DNA of 64,000 nucleotides, from the NCBI GenBank assembly GCA_964036195.1, contig OZ038451.1:21779927-21843926 (forward strand), given 5' to 3'. The notes under the pieces are model-generated. The model searched no databases, had not been told where the DNA came from, and saw only the letters and a list, made by a program, of their open reading frames with translations. Made by a program: the position numbers and the translations under genes. The stretch's first letter is position 1. Each line of letters starts with the position of its first letter. Shown here piece by piece: positions 1,868-57,764 of the stretch. The DNA comes from Sphaerolaimus hirsutus (lineage: Eukaryota; Nematoda; Chromadorea; Monhysterida; Sphaerolaimidae).

Positions 1868-2818
1868 TCAGAAAACACAAGCCAATTTGTCGAGAACATA
1901 AAGCACGGTATTGCGCTTATCCAGGCGAATAGAAATGTAGTGCGCCTGTGCGCTTCCCTTCAAACATTGCTGGAAAACATTGGTCCAGAATAAATGCTGA
2001 TATGGTGGGGGAACGTTCAGAGCCTGTAGCGCCACATTGTGAAGCCAAAATTTAAAGGGCCCCGATGGCGTGCTCAAATCCCCATTGAATGGTGTCTGCT
2101 TGCTAGCGACAGTGGCTACATGGCCACCACTCATGCGATCACTGGATGAAATTTGTGCCAGTGCACCCACGAGCGACGGAAAGCCATCGGCCAGTGCCAT
2201 GACATATTTGTCAACGTAGGCAGCAATTTGGCCGATCAGGCCACCCGGGGCAGACGAAATTGCCTGCAACCGGCTTTCAGTTGAATCCACTGGCAGGTTG
2301 GTGGATGACATTGACGGGGTGCTCAATGAAGTTCGATTTGGCACGCCCGATGCAGGACCCAAGTTTGGGCTCGTACTTGGATTAGGCGGCACAATGGGTG
2401 CCTGTGTCGCTTGCACAGCCGATAGTTGAGTGACTTGCACCCCAAGCTGCTGGATAGCTGCCAAAAGATCAGCCATGACAGGCATGGGAAGTGCCACCAC
2501 AGGTGGCTGGGTCGCGGGAGCGGAAGGTGGCGCAATGCCGTTATTATCACCCGCAGCCGGTGCCACGTCATCGGGGTCCAGCACCAACTCCAGTGAATCA
2601 TCGGGATCAGTGAAATATAGATCCATGCAGCGCCATAATTGGCGCACCAATGCCACATTGCTCAAACGCGGTGGATCGCTAATTGTGGGCCATTCGTCAT
2701 TATTGTCATCACGATATTGCAGGAGTGTGGTCAGCAACTGCATTAGCTTTTGCCGCTGGCCACGATCGATCCACGCTTCGACGATTGGCTCCAACTCGGG
2801 GCGCTTGTATTGCGACAT
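1868..2818 (-). CDS. gag-like ORF of an LTR-type retroelement
   Basis: A 316-residue open frame reads leftward and ends at a TGA. It starts MSQYKRPELEPIVEAW, has an acidic stretch (LELVLDPDDV), a proline/alanine/serine-rich middle and a more structured C-terminal third (FKFWLHNVALQALNVP) of the kind found in gag capsid regions. The next open frame continues in the same reading frame directly after the TGA and carries a zinc-knuckle-like motif and a protease motif, so I infer a gag product that would form the particle of a retrotransposon. No reverse transcriptase or integrase lies in the window; they would lie left of base 1 or be lost. It could also be a domesticated gag. Confidence rests on the downstream protease signature rather than on direct capsid similarity. 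Confidence 0.6.
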   Translation of the reverse strand: MSQYKRPELEPIVEAWIDRGQRQKLMQLLTTLLQYRDDNNDEWPTISDPPRLSNVALVRQLWRCMDLYFTDPDDSLELVLDPDDVAPAAGDNNGIAPPSAPATQPPVVALPMPVMADLLAAIQQLGVQVTQLSAVQATQAPIVPPNPSTSPNLGPASGVPNRTSLSTPSMSSTNLPVDSTESRLQAISSAPGGLIGQIAAYVDKYVMALADGFPSLVGALAQISSSDRMSGGHVATVASKQTPFNGDLSTPSGPFKFWLHNVALQALNVPPPYQHLFWTNVFQQCLKGSAQAHYISIRLDKRNTVLYVLDKLACVF

Positions 2819-3242
2819 TTTCCCAATTGCAAAGCCGCTAAATCAGCACACGCGAAATTTTTGAACAATAGTGCTGGAATGGCCAAATGCAGTAGGGTAG
2901 CACCAGGACAATGTGGTGCTATTGTTCCTCAAACTGTGCCCGCACAATTTCAGTGCAAAAATGGCACAGGAGTGACTCAGTGCAAATAGGCACAGGGTCA
3001 AATGGTGCAGTGGCGGTAGGCCAATGTTGCACCAATTGCACTAAGCGAAATATTTGCAAAGTGCAATGACGTGTTGCGGCAGAAGTGGCACGCCAGTTAC
3101 GCTGCAGCGATAGGCTGCTACAGCGCCAAAAATGCTGCACTTGCTGCGTCAGCTTCACCAGTGCAAAAACGATGCGGTAATGGCCGCGTGCAGCTGGGCA
3201 AGAGCGTCCCTTTGCTTGGCATGGATCACAAATCGAATTTCA
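2819..3242 (-). other. proximal leader of the retroelement, GTGCAA/TTGCAC-rich
   Basis: Between the gag start and the hairpin array there is no convincing ORF. The stretch holds short dispersed motifs related to GTGCAAAAATGGCACAGG and their complements. I see no clear primer-binding site. Confidence 0.35.
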
Positions 3243-3784
3243 ATCAGCCCCAGTGGCTGATCGATAGGTGCAGGTGCCTCGCAGGACTGTCGCTGGCCCC
3301 AGTGGCACAGCGACACAAGAAAAACAATTTCAATTCCGGTCAACCCCAGTGGTTGATCAGGTCGGAAAACTGGCGCGTAGCGTTGTCGCTACGCCGCTAG
3401 CCCCAGTGGCAAAGCGGCAAAAAAAAACGATTTCGATCAGCCCCAGTGGCTGATCGAAACGAGCGCTTGGCTGCGCAGCCCCAGTGGCTGATAAGCGACT
3501 GCGGCCCAGAGTCAAGTGCCGCGCAGCACCGAAACGCAGCCGCGAGGCGGATCGTCGCTTGCCCCAGTGGCGCAGCGGCGAAAAAGATCATTCCGATCAG
3601 CCCCAGTGGCTGATCGGACTGGAAATGTGGCCGCCGGAATCTGGCGGTGCTGCAACACGACGAGGTGCGTGGCGGCGCGTCAAAGTGCGTCGCGACGCGT
3701 CGATAAAATGTCGCTGGCCCCAGTGGCTCAGCGACAGCGAAAAAACGTGAATTTCCGGTCAGCCCCAGTGGCTGATCGGAAAGC
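3243..3784. repeat. array of ten hairpins with a common CCAGT loop and compensated stems
   Basis: Ten copies of GCCCCAGTGGC (one is ACCCCAGTGGT) have cores starting at 3247, 3296, 3343, 3400, 3440, 3478, 3561, 3600, 3717 and 3762. Each is the apex of an inverted repeat: inner stem GCC/GGC (ACC/GGT in the third), loop CCAGT. Outer stems differ but stay paired. One class has TTTCGATCAGCC against GGCTGATCGAAA (12 bp, 3431-3459) and similar stems at 3600 and 3762, the latter with a G-T pair. The other class has GTCGCTG against CAGCGAC with one unpaired base on the 3' side (3296, 3717) or GCCGCT/AGCGGC (3400). The classes roughly alternate. The array lies upstream of the gag-like ORF, so on that transcript it would be leader RNA with ACTGG loops. 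Role unknown. Confidence 0.85.
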
Positions 3785-3822
3785 GAGACGGCCAGGCAAT
3801 CAGGAGCCTGGGATCGAAAAAT

Positions 3823-4079
3823 CTGGGAGCGAAATTAATCGCTCCCAGTACAGTCACCATGTTATGACCGCGAAATTGCGGTCATAAATATTTCAATTTT
3901 AGTTTGTTGATTTTTTAAGGGATGCCAAGGCCAACTTGCTTCAAACCGGCGCTTTATTGAGCGATATCGGTTTATCAAATATAAGTTGGGGGCGAAAACA
4001 ATAGGTAGATATTTAGAAAATATTTACGAGTCAAAACAGCAAAACATTGACTGCCAGCCGATGGAAAAAGTCGGCTGGC
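3823..4079. repeat. three further perfect hairpins upstream of the array
   Basis: Perfect stems: CTGGGAGCG/CGCTCCCAG at 3823-3848 (9 bp, 8-base loop); TTATGACCGC/GCGGTCATAA at 3862-3887 (10 bp, loop GAAATT); GCCAGCCGA/TCGGCTGGC at 4053-4079 (9 bp). They lack the CCAGT loop but extend the hairpin-rich tract toward the presumed 5' end of the retroelement transcript. Confidence 0.7.
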
Positions 4080-4541
4080 GATGGAAAGAAAAACGGGGAG
4101 GCTTACGACAACGTGCCTCAACAAAATGCATAAAAACGCACACCTTATAGAACGCTATGCCCTTGTGCGCGGGCACTTATTTAGGTAACACGCAATGTCG
4201 CAACGCTACGCGGCGCGTGTGAAACAATAGGCGAGGGGGCATGGAAAACAGGAATTTCAAACCTTACCATCGGAAAATGAATGTAAGTATACCTATATTA
4301 AATGGCGCCGAACAGCGGCATAACATGATGAAAAGTGTGCGGAAGTAGCCCCAGATGACATTACCGGGCCTAACTCGCAAATTTTCTTATTTTGGACTGG
4401 TCGACTTTTAGAAATGGATGCCTCAATTTGAAATGGTTTCCTTCTTCAAATGACATTGACAGATTTAATTGACCGATCAGCATTGCTTAAATCATGATAG
4501 AGCAATCTGTACTAGCAAACAGATTTTTTTCTAGTGCAGAG
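4080..4541. other. no gene seen; possible distal end of the retroelement
   Basis: This stretch has no coding frame of note. It could hold an LTR, but I cannot define TG...CA ends or a second copy within the window. Confidence 0.3.
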
Positions 4542-5203
4542 TAGGGTTGGAAAAAAAACGTTTTTTTTTAACTCGATGTTTTTTTTATAAAAAAAACGTT
4601 TTTTTTTAAAAGCTCCCAGATATGACCTAGTGTCAACATATATAGGTATATCAGACACTGGCAATACTCTGTGATGTTAAATATGACCATATAATGGCTG
4701 TGGAGCCATGGGATAGCATTATAAGTGGTGATTTGTGTCAAAAATATCCATTTTTCGTCGACATATCGTTTGTATATCGCCTTATAGTCGAATGTTCGTG
4801 ACTTCAGGTAAAGTTTGGCACGGAATGGTGATCAAACAAGGTTATAAAAGGAGGTTGTTACTTTGGGAGTGAAGTTACACACTGTGGAGGTACATGGAAG
4901 CACATTACCTCAATATATATTACAGCAACATATGTCGGCTTATTCACCCATGGTAGCACATAGAAATGGATGTTTTGATACTAAAAATGCAACAAAACCA
5001 ATGAAAACAACCACCAATGTCAATTTGTGTGTGAAATTGCGCGCTTGCGCGCAAAATTTTGCAAAATACCTAGTGCTTAGTACTAAAAATTTTGGCCGAT
5101 GTTTTTTTTTAAAAAAAAACATTTCGGAAGTCATGTTGTTGTTTTTTAAAAAACGTTTTTTTTTTTAAAAAAAACGTTTAAAAAAAAACATCGGCCAACC
5201 CTA
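4542..5203. mobile_element. hAT-like non-autonomous element, AAAAACGTTTTT arms
   Basis: It starts TAGGGTTGGAAAA and ends with the complement CCAACCCTA. It is flanked by a perfect 8-bp duplication GTGCAGAG (4534-4541 and 5204-5211). The arms are A/T runs around ACGT. The roughly 500-bp core recurs at 22741-23596, and a fragment near 47031-47120 resembles it. No transposase ORF. Confidence 0.85.
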
Positions 5204-5460
5204 GTGCAGAGTTCCATTCACCAGAAGCTTGTTTGGTGCATTTGAAAAACAAAAACTGCCAATTATCTCAGGCGAGACATCAAATTTAGAGCACAGTTTT
5301 TGCTTGCTGAGATGAATTTTGATTTAAAGCCAATTTTGCTAAAACGCCCATAAATTGAATCAACATATTTCGAGAGTGGGCCTTATTATTTCACCAGAAG
5401 TTTTTTGAAATTCCAGTACTTAATTGTCCTCTGTAACACAGAGTTGCGAAGGTATATTTA

Positions 5461-10131: not shown

Positions 10132-11104
10132 TAGTGATGGAAAAAGCGCCAGACTTTTGGCGCCAAGCGCCAAAAGCGCCATGGCGCATTTCCGACCCCC
10201 AGCGCCAAGCGCCAATGGCGCCAGAGCAAAATAGCGCCAAGCGCCAAAAGCGCCATGGCGCTTTTCTGAACCTCAGCGCCAAGCGCCAATGGCGCCAGAG
10301 AGTGATGGCGCCAAGCGCCAATAGCGCCAGCGCCAAAAAACTTTTGTTCTGCAATTCGTTTGTATAAAAATCAATTCGTAATCGTAATTCGTAATTCAAT
10401 CAATAATACCGCTGATGTCGCAGTAGTCGATTTAACTTTTGCCATTCTTTAACATAACTTTAACAGCCATAACTTTAAGTTCAATCAACCACTACATCAT
10501 TAAAATCCCAAGGGATACACCTATTTTTCAGCCAAACAGCCATACGTCCTAAATATTATATCCCATTTAGTCATGTTTTTTACCAGTATGGGTATGTAAA
10601 TACTTATTCTTTACATGATACTTTACGAAAATTCCTGGCAAAATAATAAACCCCTCACTCGAAATACCCCCATCAAAAGTTGCACTCGGAAAAAATAAAC
10701 CCCCTGGTGGTATATCGAGGAAATACGGTATATTCATTTGCCCCAAATATTACCTAACCAATATTTAATTAATATAAATGTCCCATTACACCCTTATATT
10801 TATCAATATTTATTCAGTTAATCTCAAAATTTATCGACTGGCTTGTCCATTTTCACTGAATCATAAGAATTTTATTATCATGGTTGGCGCTTTTCTGGCG
10901 CTATTTAAAATGCCGGCGCCAGGCGCCAATAGCGCCACCTGAAAATGGCGCCAAGCGCCAAAAGCGCCATGGCGCTTTCTCAGATCCCAGCGCCAAGCGC
11001 CAATGGCGCCAGAGCGTTTTAGCGCCAAGCGCCAAAAGCGCCATGGCGCTTTTTGCTTTGGCGCTAGCGCCAGGCGCCAGCGCCATGGCGCTTTTCCATC
11101 ACTA
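10132..11104. mobile_element. hAT-like element with GGCGCC-rich arms
   Basis: The ends are TAGTGATGGAAAAAGCGCC and its complement, flanked by a perfect 8-bp duplication ATTGTGAG (10124-10131, 11105-11112). Both arms are arrays of GGCGCC and GCGCCAAGCGCCAAAA units. The centre is AT-rich and holds a fragment of the TA family near 10640-10730. Related GGCGCC arrays lie inside the CAGGGACGTATCC elements. Confidence 0.85.
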
Positions 11105-22724: not shown

Positions 22725-22740
22725 GTTTGCGATTCGGGAC

Positions 22741-23596
22741 TAGGGTTGGAAAAAAACGTTTTTTTCAACTGTTTTTTATTAAAAACAAACGTTTTTTTAA
22801 AGCTCCCAGATAGGCCTTGTGCCAACATATATAGGTACCGTGTTTGCTTGAATAATCCCGATGGGGGATTATTATTTCGTCAAACTTTTCAAGCATGTTT
22901 GTATCAAAAAGTGTCACGAAAGATGCTTTATCAACACAATGTGCCATTTTGGTTCAAAGTGGGCAAAAGAAATTGATCAACTCTCTTAAGGGGGGATTAT
23001 TCAAGGGGGAGGGTTATTTTACTAGGGACTGGTCTTACAGGGGGGAACTATTCACGCAAATACGGTATATCAGACAAGTGACAATACTCTGTGATGTTAT
23101 ACATAACCATATAATGGCTGTGGAGCCATGGGATAGCATTATAAGTGGTTATTTGCGCCAAAAATGTCCATTTTTTGTCGACATGGTCATATATCGCCTT
23201 ATAGTCGAATGTTTGTGACTTCAAGTGAAGTTTGGCATGGAATAGTGATCAAACAGAGTTATAAAAGGAGGTTGTTACTTTGGGAGTGATCTTACACACT
23301 GTGGAGGTACATGGAAGCAAATTACCTGAATATTATATACTGCAGCAACATATTTATGATGGCTTATTAACCCATGGTAGCACATATAAATGGATGCTTT
23401 GATTCTAAAAATGCCACAAAACCAATGAAAACAACCACCAATGTCAATTTGTGTGTGAAATTGCGCGCTTGCGCGCAAAATTTTTGCAAAATACCTAGTG
23501 CTTAGTACTAAAAATTTCGACCGATGTTTAAAAAAAAACGTTTCGGACCTCGTGTTTTTTATAAAAAACGTTTAGAATAAACATCGTCCAACCCAA
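22741..23596. mobile_element. hAT-like element, AAAAACGTTTTT arms, second copy with a nested TA element
   Basis: Same family as 4542-5203, with the 8-bp duplication TTCGGGAC (22733-22740, 23597-23604). It is interrupted by 22838-23065. Confidence 0.85.
22838..23065. mobile_element. TA-flanked MITE nested in a hAT-like element
   Basis: The ends CCGTGTTTGCTTGAATAAT and ...GCAAATACGG are flanked by TA. The uninterrupted sister copy (TATATAGGTATATCAGAC near 4640) shows the single-TA empty site. Confidence 0.85.
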
Positions 23597-26401: not shown

Positions 26402-26755
26402 TTTCTGGCTCGAACCTTTATATACCGTTTTTTGAACAATTCCCCATGGGTATTTTTTGAGGGGGAATTGTTCGAGGAGGGTTGATTATTATGTTTTCAC
26501 ATTTTTCGAGTATGTTTCTGTCAACTATACCGTTTTTAAATGATTCCCCATGGGAATTTTGTGAGGTGGGAATCGTTCAAGGAGGGGTGATTATTTTTCA
26601 CATTTTTCGAGCATCTTTCTGTCAACTGAGTTCATAAAATATGCTTTAGTCAGAACAAAAATGGTATGTTGTGTCAAGGACGTGGCCAGGGCTGGGGTCA
26701 GTTGTCACTCTATAAAAAAATTGTTTCATGGCATTTTTATGTTTGCAGACCTGCA

Positions 26756-27562
26756 GTGCCGCGTCTTGGCGCTGTTTGAACGGTGCGGTGCCACGTCTTG
26801 GCGCTGTTCCAACATGCAGTGCCGCGTCTTGGCGCTGATCGAACGGTGCGGTGCCACGTTTTGGCGCTGTTCCAGCATGCAGTGCCGCGTCTTGGCGCTG
26901 ATCGAACGGTGCGGTGCCACGTCTTGGCGCTGTTCCAGCATGCAGTGCCGTGTCTTGGCGCTGTTCCAGCATGCAGTGCCGCGTCTTGGCGCTGTTCCAG
27001 CATGCAGTGCCGCGTCTTGGCGCTGTTCCAGCATGCAGTGCCGTGTCTTGGCGCTGTTCCAGCATGCAGTGCCGCGTCTTGGCGCTGATCGAACGGTGCG
27101 GTGCCACGTCTTGGCGCTGTTCCAGCATGCAGTGCCGCGTCTTGGCGCTGATCGAACGGTGCGGTGCCACGTCTTGGCGCTGTTCCAGCATGCAGTGCCG
27201 TGTCTTGGCGCTGTTCCAGCATGCAGTGCCGCGTCTTGGCGCTGTTCCAGCATGCAGTGCCGCGTCTTGGCGCTGTTCCAGCATGCAGTGCCGTGTCTTG
27301 GCGCTGTTCCAGCATGCAGTGCCGCGTCTTGGCGCTGATCGAACGGTGCGGTGCCACGTCTTGGCGCTGTTCCAGCATGCAGTGCCGCGTCTTGGCGCTG
27401 TTCCAGCATGCAGTACCGCGTCATGGCGCTGTTCCAGCATGCAGTGCCGCGTCTTGGCGCTGTTCCAGCATGCAGTGCCGCGTCTTGGCACTGTTCCAAC
27501 AGTGCGGTGCCACGTCTTGGCGTTGGTGCGGTGCCACGACTCGGCGCTGTTCCAGCATGCAA
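26756..27562. repeat. 31/32-bp minisatellite, about 26 copies
   Basis: The unit is GTGCCGCGTCTTGGCGCTGT followed by TCCAGCATGCA (31 bp). A 32-bp variant ends ATCGAACGGTGCG and occurs at semi-regular intervals, so there is a higher-order pattern. Because 31 is not a multiple of three, several frames on both strands remain open for over 200 codons; these are by-products of the repeat, not genes. Confidence 0.9.
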
Positions 27563-27820
27563 TAAAACGTTTCTTATTACTCTAAAAACTTTAAAAAACG
27601 CACTTTTTGAAGAAAAAAATGTTGTTGGGAACTTTGGGGAAAAACAATATTTGAGAACTTCTGAAAAAACAACGTTTTTTTAAATAAACAGGGTCATTGA
27701 AAAAGCAACATTTTTTATCCCTAGTAGTACTCGCATCCAATCTTCTTGCTTGAATAATTCTAGCCAATCTGTTCATAGGATGCAGGAATTTATGTTTTCA
27801 AAGGGTCCACACACATATCG

Positions 27821-34352: not shown

Positions 34353-57764
<23,412 letters not shown>

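Follow-up and report, generated by a model that had tools for sequence, protein, structure and literature searches.

In a 64,000-nucleotide stretch of the genome of the nematode Sphaerolaimus hirsutus (GenBank assembly GCA_964036195.1, contig OZ038451.1, positions 21,779,927 to 21,843,926; hereafter the window, numbered from its first letter), ten hairpins with one and the same loop were found at positions 3243–3782. They lie in the leader between the 5′ long terminal repeat (LTR) and the gag gene of an LTR retrotransposon that is read from the minus strand. All ten loops are CCAGT on the plus strand, that is, ACTGG in the gag sense, and they are carried on stems that differ. The comparison of copies across the genome supported the conclusion that selection has kept hairpins presenting this fixed loop, and the array is probably used to mark or prime the RNA of the element. 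We tentatively propose that it is a conserved hairpin structure in a Ty3/gypsy 5′ leader which may be read multivalently by the element's own Gag and may mark the RNA for packaging.

The hairpin array and the covariation of its stems

The original prediction, made from the window sequence, described ten apices of the form GCC-CCAGT-GGC. Nine of these were found as exact copies of the 11-mer GCCCCAGTGGC at 3247–3772 on the plus strand, whereas dinucleotide shuffles (n = 100, at most one mismatch) averaged 0.69 copies and never held more than 3. The tenth apex, ACCCCAGTGGT at 3343–3353, has the same loop but is closed by ACC/GGT and not by GCC/GGC. The two stem classes that had been described as roughly alternating were found to do so, together with one mixed hairpin, X, at 3481.

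Class A hairpins have the straight stem TCAGCC/GGCTGA. In the window these are A1 (3243–3261, loop 3250–3254), A2 (3338–3358, loop 3346–3350, with the ACC/GGT closure), the 12-bp A3 (3431–3459, loop 3443–3447), the 11-bp A4 (3592–3618, loop 3603–3607) and the 13-bp A5 (3752–3782, loop 3765–3769), the latter having one G-T pair on the plus strand. Class B hairpins follow the pattern GTCGCTN-GCC/GGC-NN-AGCGAC with a one-base bulge or a 1 × 2 loop and are represented by B1 (3288–3315, loop 3299–3303), B2 (3393–3418, loop 3403–3407), B3 (3553–3580, loop 3564–3568) and B4 (3709–3736, loop 3720–3724). The inner stem of X occupies 3476–3490 (loop 3481–3485); its outer stem is partly unpaired in the window copy, and most X hairpins from other copies (11 distinct ones) have it paired. 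All of these features are assigned to the minus strand. A B and an A hairpin together form a module of 63–71 bp, which is present in four copies with unequal spacers.

The covariation within the window alone is real but thin. Among class A hairpins, two of 12 pairs were changed on both sides, a number equalled in 67 of 500 shuffles, and the covariation score was reached in 10 of 500. For the B-A module, the two-sided pairs were three of 18, and the score was reached in 45 of 500 shuffles. A covariance model of the module gave its four copies 83–91 bits and the A1 region, which came next, 28.7 bits. Since the same model also scored an unrelated GC-rich palindromic repeat at 11017–11085 (24.9 bits, E 7.8e-5), and minus-strand echoes of the array stood among its lower matches, weak matches to it mean little.

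The genome was searched as 348 Mb on 762 contigs (L-numbers below denote fetched loci and C-numbers contigs). The 38 array regions analysed, some of them near-identical copies, have 4–12 cores each, with a median of nine. A survey of 54 loop sequences (3–7 nt) that stand in these regions on perfectly paired stems of 6 bp or more showed that the CCAGT loop was carried by six different stems at 138 places, whereas every other loop was carried by two stems at most. Additional stems that the survey had grouped or missed were TCTACCTGGCC/GGCCAGGTAGA and another with an 8-bp outer stem and a bulged A.

The prediction that the outer stems differ and yet remain complementary, with the fold maintained, was borne out by the genomic copies, in which the two arms covary. 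All covariation statistics were computed without a tree. Column pairs of 64 distinct class A and 52 distinct class B hairpins from 30 loci were ranked by the G statistic with average product correction (APC). The stem pairs A10 and A3 ranked 1 and 4, and the stem pairs B8 and B9 ranked 2 and 4, of 325 column pairs in each case. The first rank in class B was taken by the bulge-side pair L4–R5, which had not been counted beforehand as a stem pair, and the remaining high-ranking pairs had both columns in the same arm. The pair types, counted after the exclusion of 61 of 344 hairpin-like sites with other loops or stems, were TA 30 and CG 27 at A10, GC 59 and AT 4 at A3, TA 36, CG 12 and TG 4 at B8, and GC 40 and TA 8 at B9, where the change is a double transversion.

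The arms of the hairpins were also exchanged. Across all copies (16 of 348 CCAGT sites remained unclassed), the own arms formed 490 of 602 Watson–Crick pairs in the outer stems of 86 distinct class A hairpins against 450 for the swapped arms (z 7.0), and 455 of 553 against 412 in 79 distinct class B hairpins (z 7.5). Swapping inside single elements, which controls for the relatedness of the copies, was done for 26 elements per class; elements sharing more than half of their hairpins with one already kept were dropped. Here, the own arms formed 580 of 700 pairs against 544 in class A (z 5.6) and 557 of 658 against 518 in class B (z 5.9), a level reached in 0 of 5000 swaps in either class. The excess of own-arm pairing, the ranks of the stem pairs and the constancy of the loop thus argue for selection on loop-presenting hairpins.

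The array segment folded much better than its shuffled versions on both strands (z −9.6 on plus, −7.5 on minus). For the local folding of the whole leader, the z-scores were −11.9 on plus and −9.2 on minus, compared with −1.9 to −4.9 in four control segments. Judging by the order of LTR, primer binding site (PBS) and gag, the gag-sense RNA would be the obvious carrier of the array.

The retrotransposon and its relatives

The window copy is a 4.86-kb LTR retrotransposon without pol. Its 466-bp 5′ LTR (TGTTATG...CATAACA) lies at 3860–4325 on the minus strand, as indicated by the homology of many copies, which stops at 4325, by the LTR pair in L052 and by a whole-genome LTR search. The 3′ LTR lies about 70–534 bases to the left of the window start and is 99.4% identical to the 5′ LTR; in L052 the pair occupies 494–958 and 4887–5352, with TG starts and CA ends. 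Next to the LTR, at 3842–3859 on the minus strand, is the PBS TGGTGACTGTACTGGGAG. Its 18 nt are complementary to the 3′ end of tRNA-Arg(ACG), of which 15 nt are encoded at the end of the gene and three are the added CCA. In a variant PBS, TGGTGATCGTACTGGGAG, the match is to another tRNA-Arg(ACG) gene. The 3′ part of the PBS belongs to a hairpin at 3823–3848 (minus), one G-C pair of which is T-A in some other copies.

The structured leader, from LTR to gag, spans 2819–3859 on the minus strand and is poor in ATG in the gag sense. Outside the array, it has four perfect stems of at least 8 bp, compared with 0.17 expected (0 of 200 shuffles). Beyond the ten array hairpins, neighbouring hairpins are chained over nearly the whole leader and LTR (2837–4242).

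The gag-like frames stand on the minus strand and the array is upstream of them in that sense, as had been predicted. The N-terminal part of the gag-protease frame, ORF1 (open reading frame 1; 1868–2818, minus), is stopped by a TGA at 1868–1870. The remainder, ORF2 (206–1867, minus), has the motif C-X4-H-X5-H-X4-C and the sequence LDSG, and between it and the 3′ LTR there is no pol. In many other copies the frame runs uninterrupted for about 870–890 codons. The Cys/His motif and LDSG were invariant in nine aligned copies, drawn from 12 pieces and the window with the omission of L086 (a stop), L089 (a stop and neither motif) and L045 (short). No match above the cut-off was found for the gag-protease frames in a Pfam profile search. 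ORF2 matched the HIV protease weakly (E 0.34), the L054 frame did not match it at E ≤ 1, and the predicted structure of ORF2 alone was uninformative (mean predicted local distance difference test score, pLDDT, 37.9). Outside the genome, protein relatives were found neither for ORF2 at E ≤ 0.001 nor for ORF1 at E ≤ 1.

No pol was found between the two LTRs of the window copy (L052) or of L054. In the whole-genome LTR search, in which 40 of 219 candidates were scored, 12 LTR pairs started 4.1–4.5 kb apart and one 1.5 kb apart; at 4.1–4.5 kb, there is no room for pol beside the leader and the gag-protease frame. Eight of the 12 pairs were compared and proved 97.8–100% identical, six of them at least 99.5% and four of these six 100%, which points to recent movement. 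From these lengths and identities, this is a largely pol-less group that has moved recently.

The 11-mer GCCCCAGTGGC occurs 1061 times in the genome, compared with 53 times for its reversed control. Of these, 100 places on C1 were listed, 92 of them in 12 clusters and eight single. A pattern of the LTR end and PBS (at most one mismatch) was found at 127 places against 0 for the control, at least two of the 127 being tRNA-like loci (C7:25400151 and C4:28872445). On the listed part of C1, 12 such places paired one-to-one with the 12 clusters; their strand was opposite to that of the 11-mer, as it should be, and every cluster had an adjoining gag match. All 30 loci from the DNA search, the window's own included, had a gag-protease match in the same orientation (ORF1 in 28, ORF2 only in L028 and L044), and so did all eight further clusters that were fetched. 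In the copies examined, the array is thus linked to the retroelement, in agreement with the original prediction, for which an unlinked array would have been damaging. In L053 (C16), there is a third LTR-like piece, and 6.1 kb separate two arrays of like orientation; element copies may be adjacent or nested there. In both L094 and L095, at about position 1501, the 3′ half of tRNA-Arg is followed by an encoded CCA, as if the primer tRNA had been copied into DNA; ARAGORN called a tRNA-Arg(gcg) gene in L094 and none in L095.

The two relatives with pol that were examined carry the loop as well. Frames of 2411–2492 codons were found at 13 places where the gag was at least 65% identical, and two of these places were read. 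The 2492-codon frame at C1:4021809 encodes RNase H, integrase and the end of the reverse transcriptase (RT) in the piece searched (L106), and nine array hairpins are present in its leader (L085). In the second such relative, C3:29557328, the leader has four ACTGG (L105). Helper and dependent copies can therefore share the putative mark. The order RT-RNase H-integrase of Ty3/gypsy elements was found in the array-bearing relative and is absent from the window copy; the array family is probably Ty3/gypsy.

Known systems, rejected readings and neighbouring features

The statement that no described family has this layout held in our literature searches on hairpin arrays in LTR elements, which covered open-licence papers and found no equivalent. 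The closest known array is that of the Sirevirus palindromes, the closest element type is TR-GAG, and the closest functions are those of the 5′ structures of Ty3 and retroviruses. In the plant Ty1/copia Sireviruses, 8–32 palindromes are clustered in non-coding parts and kept by the family, according to PMC2829016. They lie in the LTR upstream of the TATA box or before ENV, and the motif copies within an element are mostly >85% identical (PMC2829016 and PMC10760457). Both systems have a family-wide array of palindromic motifs in a non-coding part of an LTR retrotransposon. However, the pol-bearing relative of the present element has the order RT-RNase H-integrase, the array here lies between PBS and gag, and its fixed loop stands on varying stems, which we did not see in the Sirevirus description (PMC2829016).

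TR-GAG elements, described for plants, have LTRs, one gag-type frame and no pol, with a pol-bearing relative as the likely helper (PMC8704663). L052 and L054 likewise have LTRs and a gag-type frame with no pol between, and a pol-bearing relative exists, but the frame here includes a protease-like motif. With the 5′ packaging and dimerisation structures of Ty3 and retroviruses, the array shares its place in a structured leader beside the PBS. For Ty3, a palindrome that is complementary to itself has been proposed as the dimer site (PMC11381356), whereas the array loop is not self-complementary. Kissing-loop dimerisation between like loops is therefore unlikely, as neither ACUGG nor CCAGU could pair with itself. 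Repeated hairpins with a common loop serve as packaging signals in murine leukaemia virus (MLV) and alphaviruses; the hairpins there are few, compared with 4–12 here. The insulator of Drosophila gypsy consists of about 12 repeated Su(Hw) sites between LTR and gag, bound as duplex and without hairpins. It resembles the present array as a set of repeated sites from LTR to gag in a Ty3/gypsy element and differs from it in the hairpins.

Several other candidates were rejected. The window gave no Rfam match at the gathering score; three matches at E ≤ 1 within 2800–4400 were far below the cut-offs, and none of them was an iron-responsive element. Among viral contigs, 21 stretches had two GCCCCAGTGGC 20–50 nt apart, but judged by eye from their flanks these resembled short coding-type repeats whose stems did not match; no related viral contig was found, nor any match to the array in phage sequences. 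A coding reading of the array on the plus strand (APVA repeats) was rejected, since the copies change frame. Animal tRNA-Arg(CCT) begins with the 11-mer GCCCCAGTGGC, and the class B hairpin resembles an A box of RNA polymerase III; we take both likenesses to be coincidence. No B-box-like site was found in the leader on the plus strand, and there was one short likeness on the minus strand. The count of a GTGCA motif in the proximal leader was not above the shuffle maximum.

Elsewhere in the window, a second dispersed repeat flanks the element at 4539–5158 and 22738–23573, its two copies being 83–88% identical to each other. A 31-bp tandem repeat of about 25 copies at 26646–27585 has open frames on both strands. 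At 42902–42962, a perfect 27-bp inverted repeat with a 7-nt loop consists of two facing tRNA 3′ halves (CGGGTTCGATCCCCGGCGTGGGAA), presumably tRNA-Glu-like. No protein relatives were found at E ≤ 0.01 for a putative host exon.

Possible roles of the array

According to the proposal made at the outset, each of the 4–12 hairpins would show the pentaloop ACUGG on interchangeable stems, and the loops would act in RNA, recognised by one ligand binding many sites at once. The ligand would most likely be the element's own Gag, given that copies with and without pol have the array in common and that selecting its RNA is a necessity for an LTR element. Genomic RNA from both kinds of copies would be tagged by the array for entry into particles. 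A tag of this sort would be required if pol-less copies are to be carried by pol-bearing relatives that have the leader and PBS in common with them. A constant loop, interchangeable stems and about ten repeats beside the PBS read as a multivalent binding platform. We consider packaging by Gag a possible role and the leading candidate, although at somewhat less than an even chance.

A number of observations weigh against packaging by Gag. The pairing of class X was no better than that of swapped arms (z 0.1), and many changes at pairs A5–A9 and B4–B7 are one-sided and uncompensated, as the decay of dead copies would give. The single-sided changes on the plus strand comprised 72 G-T and 43 A-C (42/19, 22/21 and 8/3), so the wobbles give the gag-sense strand no preference; the six G-T and one A-C of the window leader alone are too few for a strand bias. 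Of 18 array regions compared with 24 shuffles each, 16 had the better local folding on the antisense (plus) strand. The single hairpins had no antisense bias: plus and minus were the better strand in 38 and 48 cases for A and in 12 and 9 for X, which is about equal, and in 21 and 57 for B, which is better in the gag sense. The L089 gag piece has a stop, and neither the Cys/His motif nor LDSG was seen in it. Finally, the leaders of four more distant gag-pol families (gag about 36–58% identical) have 0–1 ACTGG each and no such array, so that the lineage in general does not depend on it; in one of them, L104, the gag start is estimated and the leader coverage possibly partial. L101 and L102, which are leaders of distant gag-pol families, share with the present family the first 12 nt of the tRNA-Arg primer site but have a different repeated motif, CCGCTCA/TGAGCGG, around it; in L101, a region that starts ahead of the PBS and extends to gag folds at z −5.8.

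The loops ACUGG also repeat the middle of the PBS TGGTGACTGTACTGGGAG, and the array could therefore keep the primer tRNA-Arg close to the PBS, bound by its CCAGU in the T-stem and acceptor, much as a primer-activation signal in many copies would. This is consistent with the 18-nt matches of both PBS versions to tRNA-Arg(ACG) genes and with the resemblance of the array core ACTGGG-GC to the PBS portion ACTGGGAGC. In the distant families, moreover, the PBS-like site lacks ACTGGG in three of four (TGGTGATCGTACCGCG, TGGTGATCGTACTGCG and TGGTGACCACAC; none was recognised in the fourth), and the ACTGG array is missing in all four. However, a given 5-mer occurs in an 18-mer by chance in about 1.4% of cases, the likeness was noticed post hoc, and the contrast between families may be a single evolutionary event. 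The 5-nt contact is also short, and the tRNA stretch would itself be paired in the folded tRNA. We regard primer docking as unlikely, although we give it more weight than the other alternatives. Slightly below it stands a docking array in which loop and PBS would evolve together, coupling tRNA-Arg capture to RNA selection in pol-less and pol-bearing copies.

We judge it just as improbable as such a coupled array that the repeats act in DNA, as inverted repeats bound by a transcription factor or an insulator protein in the manner of the Sirevirus palindromes or the Su(Hw) sites of gypsy. The indifference of the wobbles to the gag-sense RNA would fit, and palindrome arrays are known in the cis-regulatory regions of LTR elements (PMC2829016; PMC10760457). 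A duplex site should keep its flanks, whereas here the stems change together around a constant loop and class B keeps a lop-sided bulge; one loop on many stems would be hard to explain by duplex binding. A little more doubtful is recognition by a host RNA-binding protein, such as a reader of CNGG loops of the Smaug type, or a control of translation by scanning or internal entry. The gag-sense loop A-CUGG does contain CNGG, but the Smaug pentaloop is CNGGN and here it is NCNGG. Ribosomes may scan the leader, as ATG is the most depleted trinucleotide in its gag sense (3 against 17.7 expected at 2819–3860). On the other hand, the plus strand is also short of ATG (13 against about 22.5), which means that CAT is depleted in the gag sense too, the ATG z-score was even lower in two of 122 other window stretches (by strand), and hairpins so stable should hinder scanning.

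Least probable in our estimate is a mutational origin only, by which the palindromes would be kept matched through template switching and module recombination, without function. Quasi-palindrome correction, in which one arm is copied onto the other, is an established mechanism and gives paired changes, and the modules duplicate, the core number varying from 4 to 12 between copies. Such a process would be expected to repair the bulge of class B as well, and a loop that stays the same on unrelated stems would not result from it; in the listed part of C1, each of the 12 PBS has the array next to it.

How LTR retrotransposons and retroviruses select their own RNA is poorly defined outside a few models. 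In the present family, the same loop is repeated up to 12 times on changing stems, so that the recognised unit can be read from sequence alone. With more than 100 PBS-bearing copies, some of them recent, and with pol-less copies that share the putative mark with pol-bearing relatives, the family may offer a testable handle on recognition by Gag or of tRNA.
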